Part shown: positions 36,272 to 64,000 of the stretch, one piece after another
Layout of the letters: each line of letters begins with the position of its first letter
Numbering within the stretch: position 1 is the stretch's first letter
Assembly: GCA_030581615.1 (NCBI GenBank)
Contig: JAKTTT010000007.1
Location: 372,001-436,000 of the forward strand
Length of the DNA stretch: 64,000 nucleotides
Reading direction: 5' to 3'
Origin: Alloascoidea africana
Lineage: Eukaryota; Ascomycota; Alloascoideomycetes; Alloascoideales; Alloascoideaceae
Notes under the pieces: generated by a model
What the model was told of the DNA's origin: nothing
The model's input: the letters and a program-made list of their open reading frames with translations, nothing else
The model's database searches: none
Translations under genes and position numbers: made by a program

Positions 36272-37268
36272 CGCTATGAGAGCGGTGCCTCCCTTCTGTG
36301 AGGAAAGAGATCATTCTTGAACTTGTAAAAAAGACATACTACAAAGAGCGGTAGCGTCGAAATTTGGAGTTTCACAAGCTAATGTGTCAAGAATCAGGGG
36401 GAAATCGATCTTGGGGGTTGAGAAACAGAAGGGGTAGGCCGTCAAAGTTGTCATCAAAGGATCCAAGTTACTCGACTAGATTTATTACGTCCCAACAAGC
36501 AGAAAACGCAGAAGAAATCCAAAAAATTCTTACCAAATCATTGTCCGAAGATATCTCGACTCAAACACTCAGGAGGGGTCTTAAGCGCCAGGGCTTAAGG
36601 GCTATTCTAAAAGTAAAAAATCCTGAATTGACTCAGCGCCATCGCTTGGCAAGATTGGCCTTCGCGGAAAAGTATAAAAGCTGGACTCTTAACGATTGGA
36701 AAAGAGTGATTTGGTCAGACGAGACCAAGATCAACGGATTGGGATCGGATGGGGAAGCGTGGGCCTGGAAACGACCCAAGGAGAAGCTGAGCGAGCGATT
36801 AATACAACAAGCCATGAAGCACGGTGAAGGCTCAGTAATGGTACGGGCTTGTATGCTTTGTAAAGGAGTTGGGCTTTACCATAAGATTGAAGGCAGTATG
36901 CCTGCCGATATTTACATGCAAAGTTTAGAGAAAAAGCTTTTGGGTTCAATACAGAAAAAAGGAAAACAGGTGGAAGATGTCGTGTTTCAACACGACAACG
37001 AGAAGAACCAAAAACTGGCTTGAAAGACATGGTATTGAGGTTTTAAAATGGCCCGCTCAATTCCCAGACCCTACTCTTATTGAACACCTGTGGCAACACT
37101 TAGAAGAGCTTTGATGACACCCAGAACCTCCACATTGTATCAAAGATTTAGAAGTCACAATTGAACAAGATTGGGACAAGATTCCAGCTTCTGTTTGCCA
37201 AAACTTAGTTTCTAGTATACCCAAAAGAATTGAAGCCGTTTTACAAGCGAAAAGTAAGTCAAACAATA
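36272..37268 (+). mobile_element. Broken Tc1/mariner-type DNA transposon
   Basis: The frame with most of the transposase runs 36364-37023. A helix-turn-helix piece (RAVASKFGVSQANVSRI) is encoded at 36345-36398 in another frame. The DDE catalytic core is recognisable: VIWSDETKIN (first Asp), VVFQHDN (second Asp), then after a frame change WPAQFPDPTLIEHLWQ (third acidic residue). A stop follows shortly and a tail runs on to about 37260. I count at least three frame breaks or early stops, so it cannot be active. It is in the Tc1 superfamily (DDE_3). The ends and the TA target site are not identifiable. Confidence 0.85.
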
Positions 37269-37399: not shown

Positions 37400-37910
37400 A
37401 TGTATATGGCATTCTTTATACTTTCTGATGATAATTAAAAGAAGTCTTTCTCTTTTATAGTCTCTATCAAAAAAGAGAGCGTCGCAGTTTATATCCTTTT
37501 TCAACAAAAAGGCGACAATAAATTGATGGGTAGGTGAACCACGGGAGTATTGTCAAAAACTAAAGAAGTGGGAATTTACAAAATTTACTCGGGGCTTTTG
37601 AGCTGTCTCCTACCAAGCTAGAGGTACTTGTTTAAGACCATGTATTGATAAACTTACAAACCATCGACCTGGCTATCTCCTACCTCCAGTGGTACACATT
37701 CTCCTTGGGTTTTCCATTCAAGAATGACGTCTTCACATTTATTTGGTGAATGTGTAGACCTGATTGAACTACCATTTCGAACATCACCCTAACTCTTGAG
37801 AATTTCACTACTGATTCCAACTTTTCTTCGTGGTTGATTCCTTCGTGCTGAATACAGCACGGTGGAACTTGCGCAAAGGCGCAACATAACTTCCGGACAT
37901 ATACAGCAGA
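37400..37910 (-). mobile_element. Ty1/copia reverse transcriptase fossil
   Basis: On the minus strand the piece GINHEEKLESVVKF, RVMFEMVVQSGLHIHQ and INVKTSFLNGKPKENVY follows the order of the copia reverse transcriptase start (after the integrase: GxDYxxTFSPVVK, then QxDVKTAFLNG), and later NCDALFF and LLLIII sit where the polymerase core would be. It is an isolated internal fragment, broken in several places, without long terminal repeats; likely old. Confidence 0.6.
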
Positions 37911-55200: not shown

Positions 55201-56846
55201 CACAAAGCACTGGTCCTTATGCATTTCGATAACTGCAAAGTTGATACCGGCATATTCTGCAAAGAGGAATAAGAGCTGGGACAAGATCCCGACCCATCTC
55301 CGTTAGTTGTGTTACTGTTGCTGTTTTCCACAGTAGCCTTGGAAATGTGAATACCATATACACTGCCTGTGTCGGTTAGAGCACAAACTGCACCAGTTGA
55401 CTTGGCGCAGACTTTCAAAATTGTGGGTCTGCGGGAAAAAACACGAGGTTCAAACCGATCAAATGAATGGAGTTTCGTCCCCGTTCCACCAAGAATTGGG
55501 AAATCAAAGTACACTTTACAATGTGAATTCAGGGCGTAGACATGAAGCTCGTGATTTACCAACAAGCAAACGGTGGCAGAATCGGTTGCCGCTACTTGAG
55601 AAACAGGACAAGGCAGATTTGCGACTTTTCTTGGACTGGACTCCACTCTTCCTTTTGAAGAACCGTTTGCATGGTACAAGGTTACCTCATCGCCAGATGT
55701 AGTGGCAAAGCCCATCTGCCCCACATTTAGTCCCCAGATAAACATGTCCCGGTCAGTAAAGACAACCGTATGTACTTTGGAAGCGGCACAGCCCTTTACG
55801 ATTTCTTTCTTCAAGGCGCCTGTGACTCGTCGTGGTTCTTGGTTAATGGGCTCATTCCCGTTATCCGCTTCAGTCATGTACCCGAGCTGGCCATATTTGT
55901 TGTAACCCCAAGTATAGCACTGGCCATTTGTAGAAATTGCAACAGAATGATCCGAGCCCAGAGCAACCGCGACAATCCTGTCCAAGGCAAAATAATCAAC
56001 TTTTTTAAGAGTTAATTGAGTAGTTGAATCACCATGCCCGAGGCGACCTCGACTGCCAATACCACAGGTGAATAGATTTCCACAACTGTCGGTAGAAAGA
56101 ACTGCAGTGTGGAGCTTTGAAATCTCAACTTTAGAAACTCTGATCGGGGCAAACTTCACCCTAGGGGGTATATTCTGTTCTTCTGAAGCCTCGGTATTAA
56201 ATACACGAGTAAATTTTACTCTTTCAGGGTGTGCTCTGTCATCTGGATCCGCAAACCCCAGTGTGTGGTTTTTGTTTGACCCAAACGTGAACAAGTCAGA
56301 TCCGCCTCTCGAGTTATTCCACCATTTTCGGTAAGGCTCATCCCATACATTGCTGGTGAAATCTGGACATCTTCGTCTTGCATCTTTTTGAAGTTGCTCC
56401 CCTGCGCTGATTTTAGCTCGAAACCACAACCGATTTTGAAAACAAGTTCGTTTGTTGTAAAGGTCGATGGCAGTTAGCCCTTCACGATCTTTCACCTTGG
56501 CCAGTTCAGGACGCTTGTTTAGCAATAATTGAGCACAAGAAATGCTTCCGGCACGCAAAGCGGCATGTAGACATGTTTCTCCATTTTCATCATCGATAGA
56601 GAAGAGATCGCTGCCTGGATTATTCAAAATGGTCCTAACCACATCAGCTCTTCCAAGAGAACAAGCCCAGCTTAGAAGCGTTCTCCCAAAACAGTCACGC
56701 TTATTTATAGTATCTCTGTCATAGTGTCGTATTTTTTCAAGGTCTTTGGAAGATAGCGCTGGAGGCAAATCAATACAGAAATCAGTAGTAATCTTGTTCT
56801 TCTGTTCATCATTAGTTATTATCCCAACATCATGCATGTTATTCAT
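52218..56846 (-). CDS. BTB3: Ankyrin-RCC1-BTB protein, IBtk/Btb3-like
   Basis: An intron-free protein of 1542 residues. Ankyrin repeats are at about 30-135 (DCFGRTLLSWACSLGRADVV and NGETCLHAALRAGSI). RCC1 repeats run about 180-520 (DLFTFGSNKNHTLGF, LFTCGIGSRGRLGHG, YTWGYNKYGQLGY, FIWGLNVGQMGF). Two BTB/POZ domains follow, at about 760 (LCDVCFEIGKRKVWAHAAIL) and 907 (CDVVVRVGDSKKSVFCHSII). Then comes a Ser-rich tail. The order is that of human IBtk and fission yeast Btb3, which serve as Cullin-3 substrate adaptors; the ligase role here is inferred. The last ~70 codons (52218-52440) are strikingly GC-rich and encode a Gly/Ser/Ala/Pro/Arg stretch, unlike the rest of the gene. A charged helix with QQNTTRSLEEIQQEEEFER lies just before it. 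Confidence 0.88.
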   Translation of the reverse strand: MNNMHDVGIITNDEQKNKITTDFCIDLPPALSSKDLEKIRHYDRDTINKRDCFGRTLLSWACSLGRADVVRTILNNPGSDLFSIDDENGETCLHAALRAGSISCAQLLLNKRPELAKVKDREGLTAIDLYNKRTCFQNRLWFRAKISAGEQLQKDARRRCPDFTSNVWDEPYRKWWNNSRGGSDLFTFGSNKNHTLGFADPDDRAHPERVKFTRVFNTEASEEQNIPPRVKFAPIRVSKVEISKLHTAVLSTDSCGNLFTCGIGSRGRLGHGDSTTQLTLKKVDYFALDRIVAVALGSDHSVAISTNGQCYTWGYNKYGQLGYMTEADNGNEPINQEPRRVTGALKKEIVKGCAASKVHTVVFTDRDMFIWGLNVGQMGFATTSGDEVTLYHANGSSKGRVESSPRKVANLPCPVSQVAATDSATVCLLVNHELHVYALNSHCKVYFDFPILGGTGTKLHSFDRFEPRVFSRRPTILKVCAKSTGAVCALTDTGSVYGIHISKATVENSNSNTTNGDGSGSCPSSYSSLQNMPVSTLQLSKCIRTSALWLRKQDSLAAIDVDVGADGDIILCTKDGAVWKSKTRTRSFSSSSEVVGYGKELKFGRVPQLTGIAKVCCDASFSCFAAIRDDVDIPPLAVNEDSFLFRMHCLSPLYDDTRNIDIKSGKLWYYSNAFALTSNADVSQNESDDEDCDRQMENNIYDKIQWLSQFRNMPHIIEHGKGQEKNHLPQYVSSLLHCANRLILSKDLDSFLDIMNTKHANRLCDVCFEIGKRKVWAHAAILGSRNEIMSDLLHSKKSKAEYDTVSFEQTFSKDHRSILVVGVDVRCFMVFLYYFYTGLLVPIWTILDSESSSIPAREISCIKSNLLQLCKAFEVKDLERAIGLRQSRSNVSIQPLKENLWEARLMDSNCDVVVRVGDSKKSVFCHSIILAAGSQYFNVLFSKRWNSEYRKRKVVDLSHFSYRSLYIAIQYLYGCELFTIFDQESFEKVDDFLCFVLEVIAVADELLLDDLKHFCEAVLSDFIHSKNVGWLLHESDYYAAYNLKAACCYYIYNNGEYLLANNFLDNIDENLLEQVDQSNWLYMGLNGEYTGIGRHNYSLSYEMRRQHLLSLFMNNIQNFNLLFTTTKIVPGFLAKETSQRQKSQGKCNEKERVFSNGFNRSSTSIAVDRASHEDDIFVLDMDNEKEEEALDDFQVVSKEHRRRRKSSTKNRASPNHRIPVTIHQTPKTSSPINDSVIGAISNGQHGMSANEPSSGRSATRKILATPEAAVGSYSSSPLSQKGGNYWPSLSDPRTPIASGSSVGSSGLTTSSTNSGWSAEKVNVSALSSRSVSIALGSGKMSQKERKKLQWGAVPSVSTATTSTAKFTTEPVHTKSNGNGSTVPWKIPQNGPSNGSKASASTSLSMFPSFPPLGQHAEVVPSLGDVIREEEFKASQRQQNTTRSLEEIQQEEEFERWWKLESERVQNAMAAAGNRKPSDPGPGSGPARHRGGKARSRARPQRGPGNSGSAGSAGSGSAGPGAGRGSSARPDRRYQVRVSGTGP

Positions 56847-57543
56847 GTTCTAACTTGAACACAAAAAGATAATAATTCCTTATCAACCAGTTTCCTGTGA
56901 AATTTGACAGTAAAAAGAACGAAAGATCGAGCAACTAATGCTGTGTTGACATGGGAGATGGAATAATGACTCCGTCATGAAGATGGCACCTTGACGCCCA
57001 CGTTGTTCCAGTGCCGGGTAACCCAAACCCTCTTCTTGTTCCCATTCATCCGTTCACCCCCTCTCGGTTGCTAGTTCTCAGGTACAGTGGCTACATACAA
57101 AATGAGTAAATCTGTCATTCAGATTTCGGGAATAAAGCATGCTCTGTTAAAATTACACCTGTTCGTATACCTTCATCACTATCATACACTTTAAGCCTCT
57201 ATGTAGTCTTAAGTGTTGAGCGCAGTTTTGATGCGCTATTGGTCTATGAAAAGCTCCACCAATAAGGGGTGTATGGGTGTTTGTGTTTCAAATGGACGTA
57301 AGCCTCCACCCCAATGCAAAGAAAAAGCTCGAAATATGAATGCCTGCTTCTCACATGGCAAAAAGTGATCTTCGCGCTAGGCGTGTCGAAACTAAACCCA
57401 GCGCTAGCACCGAAACGTCCGCTAGTGCCGTGCGATTTGTTAAAATGGCAATGCGCTGTGTCACGTGCCGTCCGGGCTGCTTCCGCAACCGCGCTCCCAG
57501 CTGTGCGATGCTCTCTTGAAAGCAAACGCCTGAGTCATACAGA
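56847..57543. promoter_or_regulatory. Intergenic region with Reb1-like and CACGTG motifs
   Basis: 697 bases: the promoter of the Btb3-like gene and the 3' flank of the chimeric gene (both minus strand). It contains CGGGTAA (57015-57021), the core recognised by Reb1 in yeasts, and CACGTG (57462-57467), a Cbf1/Pho4-type E-box. No gene evident. Confidence 0.35.
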
Positions 57544-60500
57544 CTATGGCGGGCTTCCGTTCAGCAGTTTGCTCTGTTTTAACAGTTGTGCTGACCTCTC
57601 TTTGCTTTTAATTTCTAAAGTACCGCCTCTGGTCTCTGAAATTAAATCAACGTTGAGATCTGACCATCGAAATTGGTTGAGAGAAAAGGGTATTGGCTCA
57701 TACCAGCTTATTTTCTCTTCCGCAACACGAGGTCGCAAGACGCTTGTTTTGTCAAAAAATCTGGTTTGAGTTAGGCTTTCTCCTGCATAGAAGCTAACTT
57801 TCTTCCTTTTCCCTGCTGCTTTTGTTCTTCGCAAAATCGGCGTGGGCTTCCATCCAGATACATCCTTTGTAACGCCGTTTGAGATAGGCTCATGCTGTTT
57901 GCGCTCTTCTGCAGGTCTGTGTGAAATGCTCTTTGTTGTTAAGGTATCTAACGACGCGTCGTTCTTCTCAATATTTTCATTGGTATCACTCTGCAGCTCT
58001 GGCGCTTGTTCTTGATTTTTTGTGTTCAACTCAGATTCCAGTGGCGATTGCTGCAGTTTTCTCTTCTTCACTGCTGACGCTACCTGTTCTGCTTCTGTGT
58101 TTGACTGATTGTCATGTCTGTGTTCCCTCTTTAAAGGATTCTTAAAATCCAACTCATCAGCTCTCAGTAGTTTTGAAGTATCAAAGATAGCTTCTTCCTC
58201 TTCTGCTTCTGGTGAATCGCCATCCTGTAACGTAAAATTGAAAGAGCTCTCTTCTGAATGGTAACTCTGACCCTCCAGGCCATCAGAGCCGTCTTCCTCA
58301 TCTGAAGAGGAGTAACATATTATCTCTGGGTCAGAATCGTTCATTTCAGAGTCAGAACAGCTTTCAACCACTTGCGAAACAGGTACCTGCACATTGTTAA
58401 TAGCGGCATGAAGCTGAGATCCCCTAGTTGGGTCAACTAGACTTGGCTTTGTGGGCTGTTCCAAAAGCCCGCCTTCCAAATCTTCGACAACAATAGCTGG
58501 GCTGTCAGTCGTCCCTGGATAATAATCGACACTGCTCTCCACAATTATAGGCATCTTAGATTCAGAAAGTTTACTCTGTTTCAAACTGTTCAACTTTGTT
58601 GCCCCAATCTCATCCTCAATAGCCAAATCATGCCTTGGAGCGGTATTAACATCAAAACAGTAACCCTCCTCCTTCTTGAGGAACTGCTGTGACTTCAATT
58701 CGGCATCATGATCCACCGGAATCGAACTTAAATAGTCAAGTCCAGCTTCAGTCGGTTCCTGTTTAATTGAAATCTCACTTACAACGTTGGTGGTTAAAAC
58801 TTGTGAGTTTGGTCTCACTTCTTCTTTCTCAAGCTCTTCCCTCTCCCATTCACTCTCTAAAGTTCCGGGAATAGGAACAATTAATGGCTTTGGCAAGCGA
58901 TTTGTATCAGAATCGCGTTGCACGCCGTACTTCACCAGACTGGTAGTTTTAGTGATCTGTTTGTCTTCCATCATTAACTTTAAGTCAATAGCCTTTCCTA
59001 TATCCTCCCCCCTTATCCATCGCCCCATCAGATTGTAATAAGGAGCCTTTAAAGGGAACTCGTACTGTGCCGCAACTGCAACTGTATCGGAAATTCCAGG
59101 ATCATTTTGAGTTGTCACGTTATCACTTAAAAGGGTAGACGCTATTCGTCTGACCGCTGGGGAGCCCTTCCGACAAAACACTTCCAAAACTTTGCAGCTA
59201 ACCTTGCACCTCTTCCTTGGCTCGATCTTCTCCAGTAACTCCAGCATAGGAAGCGCATCATCAAACTTCCAAAATTTGCGATCTAACTCCAGCCACGCCA
59301 TAATTCTGTTCAGAAATTGGGTGCTTGGGTCAAATGAATCCCAGACATCATCGTCTTTCAATCTCAGAATCTGATTAATAGCCAAATATCTTCTATCAGA
59401 CTTGGGGTCAGAAAGGTTGATATTCTCCTTGACAGACAAAACAATTCTCTCTAAGCTGTCAAGTTTCGTGTTAGTCAAGCATCTTTCATCGCTCGTCCAA
59501 GAACGTGGTTGGATAGCTTCAATCGCTTGGATCGTTTGGCCCTTGTAGAGCAAAAGAGGCAGCTGTTTGGTTACAATTTTATAACCAGCCTTTGTAAGCT
59601 CCGCGTAAGAAATCAAGTTTTGGCCGAAAAAGGGGGCATACTTGAAACTTAGGCTCATTTCATGCTTTAAAAAGCTCCCTCCTTTGGCTTTCATCTTGGA
59701 CATGAATAAAAGGATAATTTCTCCTTGACCAGCTATAAACACTCCAGTGGATTCATCAAAAACAGGCTTATCATACAACTGGACATTTTTTAGAGATTCC
59801 AGGCAGCCGGTAATGTTGACAGTAATGCCAAAATCAATGTTCCAAGCATCCCTAGATTCAGAGCAAAACTCATCCCAATGTCCACTTTTTCCACATGTAT
59901 CACAATAAGCTGTCTCAGAAAGCTCTTGTGGGAATCTAAGCTGAGACGTAGAAGTATTGTTCCTTTTTGCCAGTTGTGATTCTCCTCCAATTAGTAGCTG
60001 ATATATTCGAGCAGGAGTGAGATCTGAAGGAATGGAGTTGACTAAACTTCGTAAAGGCGTCTTAGGGTGCATGAGTGTTTTGAGTAAGGCCGCAAGAACT
60101 TCATCGCCATCCTGCTGAGAATAGAAGAACTGGTCCTCCAGTTTCAGGTTCATATGGACCCGAGCAATGAAGTCGGAGACTGGATAACCGCCTTTATACA
60201 GTCCAAGTGTAGAAAAATTAGGGCGGGAACCCGCTTCCAAGAGTTCAGGGCAAAAGCGGTGTACGAGCTGAGTGTAAGTGGCATATACAGAAGATTGAAC
60301 AAGAGGGTATAGTTCAGCATCTATAGTAGTTCTGATAATAAATAGAGCAGCCTTGGTAGCACGCCCATACTCGTCATCGGAGTAGGACCAGGTGCCATCC
60401 TTTGTGCTCAAAACCCATGATATGTTGAGATGCCTTAGGTAAGTTTCTAGAAAGTAGTCCCAGTGTGCAAAACATTCAGGTGTGCTGTTTGTGTCCAAAA

Positions 60501-60570
60501 AATACAGGAATGGTAGGCGGTGTAAAAGTTTAACTGAGTCAGATGGCTTCAGTTCGAGGTCCAAGCTCAT
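57544..60570 (-). CDS. Chimera: Ty1/copia Gag-protease-like N-terminus with PNUTS/Ref2-like C-terminus
   Basis: One uninterrupted frame of 1008 residues from the ATG at 60570. Residues 1-215 read as a Ty1/copia Gag. 223-236 is a CCHC zinc knuckle (CDTCGKSGHWDEFC). 243-350 follows the copia protease region, ending with the typical NLISYAELTKAGYK block. From 365 to 485 lies a helical segment (FLNRIMAWLELD, MLELLEKIEP, GSPAVRRIASTLLSDN) that resembles the TFIIS-N domain of PNUTS and its fungal relatives Ppn1/Ref2. An acidic, Ser-rich linker follows. At 923-939 is RKKVSF then LTQTRFF, an RVxF-type PP1-docking motif with the spacing seen in Ref2-type proteins. A minus-strand TATATAAA lies about 160 bases upstream. 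If right, it is a nuclear PP1 regulator in 3'-end processing with a captured Gag. Gag/protease: strong; PNUTS part: moderate. Confidence 0.65.
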   Translation of the reverse strand: MSLDLELKPSDSVKLLHRLPFLYFLDTNSTPECFAHWDYFLETYLRHLNISWVLSTKDGTWSYSDDEYGRATKAALFIIRTTIDAELYPLVQSSVYATYTQLVHRFCPELLEAGSRPNFSTLGLYKGGYPVSDFIARVHMNLKLEDQFFYSQQDGDEVLAALLKTLMHPKTPLRSLVNSIPSDLTPARIYQLLIGGESQLAKRNNTSTSQLRFPQELSETAYCDTCGKSGHWDEFCSESRDAWNIDFGITVNITGCLESLKNVQLYDKPVFDESTGVFIAGQGEIILLFMSKMKAKGGSFLKHEMSLSFKYAPFFGQNLISYAELTKAGYKIVTKQLPLLLYKGQTIQAIEAIQPRSWTSDERCLTNTKLDSLERIVLSVKENINLSDPKSDRRYLAINQILRLKDDDVWDSFDPSTQFLNRIMAWLELDRKFWKFDDALPMLELLEKIEPRKRCKVSCKVLEVFCRKGSPAVRRIASTLLSDNVTTQNDPGISDTVAVAAQYEFPLKAPYYNLMGRWIRGEDIGKAIDLKLMMEDKQITKTTSLVKYGVQRDSDTNRLPKPLIVPIPGTLESEWEREELEKEEVRPNSQVLTTNVVSEISIKQEPTEAGLDYLSSIPVDHDAELKSQQFLKKEEGYCFDVNTAPRHDLAIEDEIGATKLNSLKQSKLSESKMPIIVESSVDYYPGTTDSPAIVVEDLEGGLLEQPTKPSLVDPTRGSQLHAAINNVQVPVSQVVESCSDSEMNDSDPEIICYSSSDEEDGSDGLEGQSYHSEESSFNFTLQDGDSPEAEEEEAIFDTSKLLRADELDFKNPLKREHRHDNQSNTEAEQVASAVKKRKLQQSPLESELNTKNQEQAPELQSDTNENIEKNDASLDTLTTKSISHRPAEERKQHEPISNGVTKDVSGWKPTPILRRTKAAGKRKKVSFYAGESLTQTRFFDKTSVLRPRVAEEKISWYEPIPFSLNQFRWSDLNVDLISETRGGTLEIKSKERSAQLLKQSKLLNGSPP
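59521..60570 (-). mobile_element. Captured Ty1/copia Gag-protease segment inside the chimeric gene
   Basis: Family Ty1/copia; parts: Gag, zinc knuckle, protease-like region. No integrase, reverse transcriptase or long terminal repeats are next to it. The segment is in frame with the host-like part and without interruption, so it looks domesticated rather than a fresh insertion. Confidence 0.6.
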
Positions 60571-60822
60571 AACCAGGAGTCATTAGTGTCAAGGTGTAGT
60601 TAGCAGCCTCAAGCTGGAAGGCGAACAAAGTGAAAGACTGGTCTGAGTCTTGTGGGCCCAGAAGTGGTGCGAACTCAAAGCAGGGGGTGAGGGAGAAGAA
60701 GAAAGGGAGAAAAGAGGGAAACTGCCCTTTATATAGTAGTCTACAAAAGGACGGGTGCACAAGCACGGACACCCCCAAGTTCATTAACTAAGTCTATGTA
60801 GCTTCTTCGTTTCTGTGTCTGT
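60571..60822 (-). promoter_or_regulatory. Promoter of the chimeric gene
   Basis: 252 bases holding a minus-strand TATATAAA (60735-60728) and, downstream of it, a pyrimidine-rich leader. The upstream neighbour is the 3' end of YIP3. Confidence 0.5.
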
Positions 60823-61715
60823 CTATACCATTTCCTCCGCGAATGCTGTTTCGACGGGCTTATCGAGCAAGGCAGCGTGGCCGATAATGGTCACTGCCGA
60901 GGCACCGACCAGCCACAAGATTGTCGAAATGGGGGAAGCAAAGAATCCGAGCGGAAGAGCTGGGCAAACGTTAGAAAGCACAGGAGAACGCTATTGACAG
61001 TCTGTAAAAACATACCAATTATCAGAATTCCAGTGTAGAGCTGGGAGGTTGTAAACTTGATAACGCCCAGGTTGAGATCCGCTCCATTCAGCCTTCCAAT
61101 GGCCAAGACGCCACCAGCGGCAAATACCTTTAGTAGGCCCGGTTAAATATTGGCTAACATTCTAGAAGATTAAGCATGCTGTTCTTGGAAAAAACTTACG
61201 ATAACAAAAAGTAGAAGAAGATTTTTCAACAGCGCGTAGATGCTTAGCATTACCAAGATAAGGGCGTAATTGCTGGAAAAATAGCTCAAGTTGAATGAAA
61301 TTCGGGCCTGAGCCTCGCCATAGCTTCCTGGTCTTGAAATTCTCCTTATATCAAAAAAGTCTGTGATGGATCTGAGAGAAGCAAACCGGCTACGAAGTGA
61401 GTTCGAATCTGACTATGGAGGACCGGTTAAAATTGCTTGTTCATCCAACAGACTCTGCAAACTTTCCATCAGTTCTCAGGCCAAAGATAGTTCCTAACAT
61501 ACTCGAAGTTGATCAAGATTGAATCGTTCAGAAAAAGACGCGAGCTATGGTGGACGAAAGAATGTTAATGAACGGTTCCTCCAACTATGACGTTTCATTA
61601 AGAAGCGGTGCGCTTTCGTGTTGATACTCGGAAAAACGTCAGAAAACACTGCTCAGAGAACGAATAAACTTACCTGGAGGCCAGCCGCACTGACAGATGA
61701 TAGTATGTTAGGCAT
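60823..61715 (-). CDS. YIP3: PRA1/Yip3 Rab-acceptor membrane protein (4 exons)
   Basis: Exons are 61715-61674, 61412-61200, 61127-61016 and 60959-60823. The spliced product is 167 residues, the usual length. Introns are 261, 72 and 56 bases, with donors GTAAGT, GTAAGT and GTATGT. Key pieces are FFDIRRISRPGSYGEAQ, ISFNLSYFSSNYA, TTSQLYTGILII-ALPLGFFASPIS, and the end GHAALLDKPVETAFAEEMV, matching yeast Yip3/PRA1. These proteins with four membrane segments bind prenylated Rab GTPases at ER/Golgi membranes and aid vesicle traffic. The first exon is short (MPNILSSVSAAGLQ); it is supported by a consensus donor and matching phase, but not by similarity, so the start is the least sure part. Confidence 0.92.
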
Positions 61716-62112
61716 CGGGAAGGGAGAGTTGCGACAACTTTGGGGTGGAGAGAATGTGTAGAGAAGTGCTGGAAAGCGAGGCCACATAGGCGTATCAGCC
61801 AAAAGGGTCAGCCTTCACTGTGGGAGCGCTAGACCACACAAACGGGATTAGACCAAAAGTGCAAGTCTACAAACTCTCCGGCCTCGGCTTCTTCGTGAGC
61901 TTGAGATTGTCTCGGTCAGAAACTAGACAACAGATGGCAGTCATTAGTTATTGCCTATGAGTGCTATCCCAGCAGTAGATAACTGTGGCAAGGAAAGTGT
62001 CTAAAGTGTTGCACATTGAATCTGTCTACTAGTATAGATGCCAAATGCCGGAATAGAGACTTCCATCTACAGTTTGAAGACATTGGTTTACAACTTTTAT
62101 TTATGGTCTTGG
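61716..62112. other. Intergenic region between YIP3 and NUP120
   Basis: 397 bases: YIP3 promoter and NUP120 3' flank (both minus strand). I see no gene, TATA box or repeat of note. Confidence 0.4.
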
Positions 62113-64000
62113 CTACACTCCATCTGCTATTCTAGCCATTTGTAATCCGATAATTCGCCCCAACCTCGCCAGCCACTCTTCGTACTCCCTCTCAATATCT
62201 CCATAAGTGAGTGCAACAGAGCAGTTCGATGTTTCGGGTTTGCTTCGTTTTTTGTCATCATTATGCTCCCTGTTGTCTTCAGAAGCTGTTGCTTTTAATC
62301 GGTTCTTGGTTCCGTCTTTTTCCTTCATCGCTATTATCCAGCTATCCTCTTTCGGTAAGCACGACAAAACGTTGAGAACAGAAACATAATATTCTGTGAT
62401 CATTACGTCACTACTATGAGGTTCAAGGGATGAGGAACAAGATTCTCGAAGTTGTCTCAGGTAAGAATACAAAGCAGTGGCAGCTTCGTTATGTTAGTAT
62501 TTTCCGGTTACCTCGAAAAAAAGAAAATTGCTTACCTCCTCTATAGTCACCAAAATTTGCCCTCCATGAAAAAAGCACTTTGTAGTACAAGTTTGCATTC
62601 TCTTCTCGACTATTGCTCTTTATCTTGCTTTGTAAAACCTCATCAACGCCTTCATACAATCCCACAAAAGGAAATGATTCTAATACAGAACTTTTCCCAG
62701 CCTCCAAAACTTTGGTGATAAACACATCCAATGCTTCTGAAAATTCATCAGTACTTTCTAGATCCAACAAAGATTCATAAGCCGAGTTGAAGTCGCTTGC
62801 TCGTACTGCTGATGTGAACCTCAGTAATGCCAATCTCTTCAAGTTGGAAGAAGAATTGTCATAGTTATTGAGACTGGCAATGTTGACAAACTTTAGTGCA
62901 GCATTGTAATAGCCCTTGCTGTTAAAAAGATCCGCGATGGCCAAATAATAAGAAAAGACCGATTGACCAAAAAGGCCAATAGCTTTCCTATTCAATGCCA
63001 AAACAATTTCTTTCTCTTCCGTACTCAGACGATGAGCCGCTATTTCAAAAGACATTCTTTTGAACAAAGATGTAGCCTTGTTAATTTTGCCAGCTACTAA
63101 AAACAGATACCCTTTGACAAACTTGCTCATAACTGTTGAAGGGATGGTTATATATGGTAAAAGAATTAATGCATCATCCAGTTTGTCACCAGTTATCAAA
63201 ATCGCAATTATCGAAAGGCCAAAATTAGGGTTGAAAATGTGTTGGGCCACCAGGGCTCCAAGTCCTGAATAAGCATTTTGTCGCGCAAAGCAGAACTCGT
63301 TCGAGCTCTTGTAATTACTTAGTAGCCATTTCTCCATGGTCGAGATTATCGGTTTTGGATAATATGTGTCGATACTAGTTGTCTGATTTGAGCTGACAGA
63401 AAGATTCTTGACTCGGCTAGCCAGGCTATCTTCTTGTGAAGATTCACTCCAGTTATGATTATCACTTAACCCGATCAATGCAATCCGGCATTGCTTGAAC
63501 ATGCCAAGAAAGTAGCTGTAGTACTTTGAGAAATCTTCAGAAATGTTGTCCTCAAAGTATGGAGAGGATGATATGAGCACAATAACAATTAACACATCGA
63601 AGAGTGTCTGATCTGCAGCTTGGAGTGCCTGCAAAGCCGAATTTTTTATTATTGACAGCCCTTCTTTACCCAGTAGGAACTTGCCAGGAAGTTCACGAGT
63701 CGTGCTCAAGAAGGAGTTGAGGAGAGCATCAAGTACCCCAATTATATCAATTTCTCCTAGAGCAATCATTAGCGCTTTCTGCGAGGTGAAGGAATACTTT
63801 GTATGCAAGGTACATTCAAAAACAGCATCAATTCTATCTGAGATTGAATAATGAGGCAGTTTCGAAAACTCTTCCTCCAAGTTTGCTCTAATGTCACTCT
63901 GAATAACATGAGACAATGAACGCCTAAAAGTTTCAGCTGCATCAAGAAAACTCAGAACATTTCCTAAAAATCCTTTTGATACTTTAAGATGCGATGCTAG
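62113..64000 (-). CDS. NUP120: Nup120/Nup160 nucleoporin, C-terminal part (5' end outside window)
   Basis: Visible exons are 64000-62536 (open to the window edge) and 62483-62113. The 52-base intron has GTAAGC, a perfect TACTAAC (62499-62493) and AAG. The visible part is about 611 residues, almost all helical. The join gives FSWRANFGDYRG-AATALYSYLRQLRE, and the end has LTYGDIEREYEEWLARLGR. Both blocks are characteristic of the Nup120/Nup160 C-terminal helical domain. The protein is an arm of the Y-shaped Nup84/Nup107 complex, a structural scaffold of the nuclear pore. The N-terminal beta-propeller lies beyond the right edge. Confidence 0.9.

Follow-up and report, generated by a model that had tools for sequence, protein, structure and literature searches.

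Gag proteins of retrotransposons self-associate, and their CCHC zinc knuckles bind nucleic acid. PNUTS, Ppn1, and Ref2 bring protein phosphatase 1 (PP1) to RNA polymerase II and to the 3′-end machinery (PMC7990198, PMC10783616). We investigated a locus at which sequences of these two kinds appear to be joined. It lies in a 64-kb stretch of the ascomycete Alloascoidea africana (assembly GCA_030581615.1, contig JAKTTT010000007.1, positions 372,001 to 436,000; hereafter the window), where a single frame on the minus strand (60570-57544, 1008 codons) would encode a Gag-Pol-type N-terminal part followed by a PNUTS/Ppn1-like C-terminal part. A first-pass annotation had described the locus as a copia Gag, zinc knuckle, and protease-like region joined to a PNUTS/Ref2-like regulator, an observation that our analysis partly confirmed, with the capsid as its weak point. 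The frame is open from ATG to stop across the junction, as had been claimed, and its DNA has a single match, itself, in the genome (23.2 Mb, 138 contigs). All features of the gene given below are on the minus strand.

The copia-type part is most easily recognized at its zinc knuckle, CDTCGKSGHWDEFC (residues 223-236; 59863-59904), which matches the CCHC pattern perfectly. Motif patterns were counted over 343 frames of at least 100 amino acids (the window plus loci L030-L052), and four frames contained the CCHC pattern, the other three being host copia Gag frames (L044, L050, and L051). Directly adjoining the knuckle, as in copia, is a stretch that we identify by profile and alignment as a copia protease/Pol_BBD domain (residues 237-340; 59551-59862). 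A Pol_BBD profile built from seven rows of the same genome, excluding the window row and including one row (L049) that is a solo frame with no clear element, scored the fusion frame at 19.4 bits (E = 4.5e-8 for one sequence), with residues 237-340 as the best stretch, and none of 2000 shuffles reached this score (highest 7.3 bits). Of the 201 window frames of at least 80 amino acids, none but the fusion rose above the inclusion threshold. Identity to the seven rows is 16-30% in the alignment, and the Pfam Pol_BBD model gave a full-length match that fell short of the model's cut-off (15 bits, with 27 required; E = 0.032). Among the 12 columns that are invariant in the six copia rows (L049 excluded), seven are retained in the fusion and five are altered. 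Active aspartic proteases have the catalytic motif D-[ST]-G-[AS]. In the fusion, the DSGA site has become DFGI (residues 246-249), so the protease, judged by what is established for this enzyme class, is probably inactive. The copia front end proposed in the first-pass annotation stands for the knuckle and for the protease/Pol_BBD homology; residues 1-215 are a presumed capsid.

The PNUTS-like part has one counterpart in the genome. Beyond the gene itself, a genome search with residues 351-1008 found one place on contig C86 (E = 1.3e-4); two further matches (E = 0.33 and 0.51) were taken as chance. The place on C86 holds a frame of 1026 amino acids, which we call PNUTS-like because Pfam returned no relevant match for it. 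Its motif, SKTVQWRPDHDLVQIREF, is of the PNUTS type and resembles that of animal PNUTS. The same motif is similar to that of Ppn1 (PMC7990198). The second gene has no CCHC pattern and no match to the protease profile (-0.9 bits), and it has in common with the fusion three colinear blocks: a TFIIS-N-like domain, a PP1 motif, and a C-terminal block. The existence of this Gag-free gene means that the fusion need not be the sole regulator of its kind in the genome. The second gene (G000:C86:25323-31460, L046) and a long coiled-coil frame, FHA-like by eye, are convergent, and a weak Retrotran_gag_2 match at the same locus (E = 0.066) was taken as chance.

The first of the three blocks is the TFIIS-N-like (LW) domain that had been claimed for about residues 365-485 (59116-59478). 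Residues 373-476 match the domain of the second gene (blastp E = 2e-7; phmmer 24.6 bits), and the best of 2000 shuffles reached 12.6 bits (residues 356-520 were shuffled, whereas the real target was the whole frame), which bears the claim out. An AlphaFold model of residues 346-513, built from an alignment in which the second gene supplied the one additional row, had pLDDT 69 and pTM 0.64. In a Foldseek search with this model, 6vti, the PNUTS N-terminal domain, came first of 425 matches at E ≤ 10 (probability 1.00, TM 0.47/0.53, with a weak E value of 0.059). The predicted fold therefore did not turn out to be an unrelated one, and we regard the 6vti match as supportive, not decisive alone. 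Taken together, the fusion has the TFIIS-N (LW) domain of the PNUTS/Ppn1/Ref2 kind in a very divergent form.

The second block is the C-terminal PP1-docking motif RKKVSFYAGESL, of the form RKKVSF-x5-L-x3-R-x-F (residues 922-939; 57754-57807), an RVxF-type motif with a basic run and a Leu at +6. Such a motif had been predicted, and the long PNUTS-type pattern indeed occurs in only two of the 343 frames, the fusion and the second PNUTS-like gene. In Ppn1, a basic run is followed by V, by F or W at +2, and by a Leu six further (VSW...DL; PMC7990198), and the spacing in the fusion (basic run, V, aromatic at +2, Leu six later) is the same. The third block (residues 951-1003; 57562-57720) matches the second gene with blastp E = 0.003 and a local score of 67, which none of 2000 shuffles equaled (best 55); by phmmer the margin is narrow (13.0 bits against 11.4 for the best shuffle). 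Counted from the motif Val, it spans +26 to +78, about where Ppn1 has its Swd22-binding segment (+25 to +70; PMC7990198).

We moderately favor the reading that the fusion is a duplicated PNUTS/Ppn1-type gene with a copia 5′ part that works as a PP1-targeting subunit. In this reading, the 5′ portion of a copia element, comprising Gag and the beginning of Pol, would have been added in frame ahead of the TFIIS-N-like domain of such a duplicate. The parts on which PNUTS depends would have been retained, namely a TFIIS-N-like domain that docks to transcription factors, an RVxF-type motif that binds PP1, and a C-terminal block at the place of Swd22 binding in Ppn1; of the copia sequence, the zinc knuckle and protease domain would remain, with the canonical active site lost. 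The product would be a PP1-targeting subunit of the transcription termination/3′-end machinery, in which the Gag-derived part may be an additional module for RNA binding, perhaps also for self-association, that alters the set of transcripts reached by PP1. We infer, in keeping with this, a capsid at the N-terminus, expression and purifying selection of the gene, binding of its product to PP1, Swd2, and RNA, and a function of the fusion as such. It looks as though a mobile element has been taken over by a basic host pathway at this locus.

Whether the two halves form one gene can be approached from the DNA around and within the frame. A TATA box, TATATAAAG (60727-60735), lies about 157-165 bp upstream of the ATG and is followed by a CT-rich stretch, in agreement with the promoter element reported earlier. 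No other TATA[AT]A[AT][AG] site occurs on the sense strand between 60823 and 59400; the window contains two matches to TATATAAAG (0.38 expected on both strands), and 5 of 100 shuffles had at least two. The splice donors GTRAGT, GTATGT, GTACGT, and GTAAG are absent from 60823-59401, so the Gag half would stay in a transcript started at the upstream TATA box, unless an unusual donor is used. There is no Met between residues 305 and 424, and hence no start codon just before the TFIIS-N-like domain. An unlikely alternative is that the Gag half was inserted passively or recently and stays open through luck or youth, and that a functional, divergent PNUTS paralogue is made from an internal start at Met 290, 293, or 305. 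These Met codons exist, TATAAA occurs at 60198 and 59583, and the codon usage of the Gag half tilts slightly toward copia; however, any of the three starts would retain a remnant of the protease, the longer TATA match is upstream of the Gag ATG, the Gag part has no second copy in the genome at E = 0.01, and the frame is intact even though the protease site is altered.

We simulated neutral decay of the 350-codon Gag part, with frameshifting indels assumed at 8% of substitutions. Of the 2000 runs made at 0.10 substitutions per site, 2% still lacked a stop, and none was still open once the indels were included; at 0.02 substitutions per site, 42% of runs were free of stops and 7% had neither a stop nor a frameshift. 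The Gag-half frame has therefore probably not been decaying neutrally for long, a result that gives no date for the fusion. A decaying or unexpressed chimeric pseudogene, open by chance, is in our estimation very improbable: the presence of another PNUTS-like gene elsewhere in the genome speaks for it, but the locus has 1008 open codons and a promoter element, and the PNUTS half has blocks in common with the second gene at its beginning and again at its end.

A search of 56700-62700 for ungapped repeats of at least 20 bp, direct or inverted, found none, and thus no long terminal repeats (LTRs) were seen there. This bears on a further alternative, in which a retrotransposon captured a host PNUTS gene and became a mobile, non-autonomous element. 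As in some gene captures, Gag stands ahead of host sequence here. We nevertheless give this alternative almost no weight, given the lack of such repeats and the single DNA match in the genome, with no reverse transcriptase seen adjoining the fusion and other genes, described below, on both sides. With no canonical donor or long repeat, and with a TATA box before the ATG, a host gene is our best reading of the locus. The description of a working host gene that had been given earlier is to this extent plausible: the open frame, the lack of donors and repeats, and the single Gag copy speak for it, all of them indirectly.

Several observations weigh against a working Gag-PNUTS fusion, and those on the capsid come first. 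Residues 1-215 (59926-60570) occupy the place of the Gag capsid and are helix-rich in a low-confidence model. When they were compared with the capsids of the two host copia groups (two profiles of two sequences each), their scores ranked 317 and 495 among 1000 shuffles. A search of residues 1-355 against 793 frames of at least 60 amino acids from 18 host loci gave a best match of E = 0.05, and this was to the protease part. Residues 1-215 had no relevant match in Pfam or among PDB sequences, and a fold search with their AlphaFold model, which is poor (pLDDT 42.5, pTM 0.28), returned no match at E = 0.001. The silence of Retrotran_gag_2 on these residues says little, because this Pfam model has no match above its cut-off anywhere in the genome. 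As the sequence and fold searches gave nothing usable, the label of capsid is given to residues 1-215 by their position only. A Pfam UCH match to the fusion frame (E = 0.03, and 0.01 in another search), below the cut-off, was taken as chance.

On the PNUTS side, the 6vti match has an rmsd of 11.3, and Foldseek found nothing at E = 0.001. A profile made from the two TFIIS-N-like domains and run against PDB sequences missed 6vti; it returned a repetitive WD40 protein (E = 7.7e-6, not significant over any one stretch) together with three kinase regulators (E = 0.13-0.18), all taken as chance. Pfam had no relevant match for the TFIIS-N-like domain of either gene, and the Pfam Med26 (TFIIS-N) model, which matched three places in the genome, matched neither domain. 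For the second gene, too, the assignment to PNUTS relies on its motif and the shared domain, and a shorter form of the PP1 pattern is present in the fusion and in one unrelated frame of 108 amino acids. As for the unity of the gene, the decay argument assumes an ordinary donor copia protease and time elapsed since the fusion; an element that was unusual from the outset, if inserted recently, would be open as well. In codon usage, the Gag half is on a level with the one of ten host frames that most resembles copia, which does not discriminate, and neither codon usage nor the GC content at third codon positions (GC3) separates either half from host genes. Finally, an upstream open reading frame of 14 codons, MTPGYELGPRTEAI (60540-60584, ATG at 60584), overlaps the ATG at 60570 and might regulate translation. 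On balance, the sequence supports the fusion well except at the capsid, and that the fusion functions as such is a proposal.

Two described cases make a role directed at retroelements possible: DRT2, a Gag-derived restriction factor of yeast (PMC10951436), and WDR82, a termination regulator that acts with HUSH, a silencer of foreign DNA (PMC10915761). The gene could accordingly be a domesticated retrotransposon-control factor, its Gag part recognizing copia RNA or particles and its PNUTS part bringing PP1 to terminate or silence transcription of these elements. The genome has 34 RVT_2 (copia reverse transcriptase) matches, 20 without and 14 with an internal stop, but the capsid region is unlike any host copia Gag sampled, and we consider this role distinctly unlikely. 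A more specific version, which we put forward as speculation with low expectation, is that the Gag part recognizes nascent retroelement (or other) RNA and that the PNUTS module delivers PP1 and stops transcription there. If true, a retrotransposon coat protein would now serve to target RNA polymerase II termination, as a terminator that is guided by protein, selects by sequence, descends from the very element it keeps in check, and acts beside the other PNUTS-like gene.

The host copia elements sampled here fall by similarity (no tree) into two groups of Gag-protease frames, one that comes close to the Ty5 Gag model (E = 1.2e-4, slightly under the cut-off) and the other with CCHC knuckles. At one locus (L044:5443-7066, G000 contig C123), one strand carries copia Gag-protease sequence and the opposite strand a further copy of the protease part, with overlapping ends. 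The solo frame used in the Pol_BBD profile (L049:965-1480, G000 contig C48) is an open frame of about 171 amino acids with a Pol_BBD domain (Pfam E = 1.1e-8), in which the DSGA-type site reads STGV; it overlaps the end of a frame that is nuclease-like by eye, in a region of the other strand. It may be another domesticated copia protease-like gene.

The fusion gene is flanked by an ANK-RCC1-BTB gene on one side and by transporter-like exons, recognized by eye only, on the other. Among the other genes of the window are a Nup120-like frame, a chitin synthase with a myosin head, a phospholipid methyltransferase, and the ANK-RCC1-BTB protein, a gene content (the chitin synthase above all) that points to a fungus. 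At 37692-37853 the window has a weak copia reverse-transcriptase remnant (RVT_2 E = 1.1e-4, below the cut-off), near a Tc3-type transposase fragment (36364-37023) and beside an HRQ1-like helicase gene. Scans of viral contigs and phages found no relatives of the fusion gene outside the source genome.

Among the matches listed in the open-licence literature, none describes a fusion of Gag with a PP1 regulator, and the excerpted accounts of the domesticated Gag genes Arc, PEG10, PNMA1/4, Gagr, and DRT2 describe none of them as joined to a transcription-termination regulator. Compared with the N-terminal part of copia (Pseudoviridae) Gag-Pol, the fusion has the same order of CCHC knuckle and protease/BBD domain, but its active site reads DFGI, its capsid part is unrecognized, and no reverse transcriptase, integrase, or LTR was seen with it. 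With DRT2 of Saccharomyces cerevisiae it has in common a copia-type GAG (Ty1′ in DRT2) turned fungal host gene (PMC10951436), whereas in the fusion the Gag-type sequence is joined to a phosphatase regulator. LUMINIDEPENDENS of Arabidopsis is likewise a divergent PNUTS/Ref2-like protein, part of a CPF-like phosphatase module, and the excerpted source does not mention Gag sequence in it (PMC7616277). In layout the fusion is like fission yeast Ppn1, animal PNUTS (PPP1R10), and budding yeast Ref2, which have a TFIIS-N-like domain, a long linker, a PP1 motif, and then a conserved block (PMC7990198, PMC10783616). The fusion differs from them in its very divergent TFIIS-N-like domain and in a host genome that has a second PNUTS-like gene, and where the N-terminus of Ppn1 is disordered (PMC7990198), the fusion has Gag/protease sequence. 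A Gag joined in frame to a PP1 regulator would tie retroelement domestication directly to core RNA polymerase II control, and it raises the question of whether a Gag-derived RNA-binding module redirects PNUTS-PP1 to chosen transcripts. Domesticated Gag genes and PNUTS relatives are both known kinds; judged from the papers listed, it is their combination in one gene that appears to be new.

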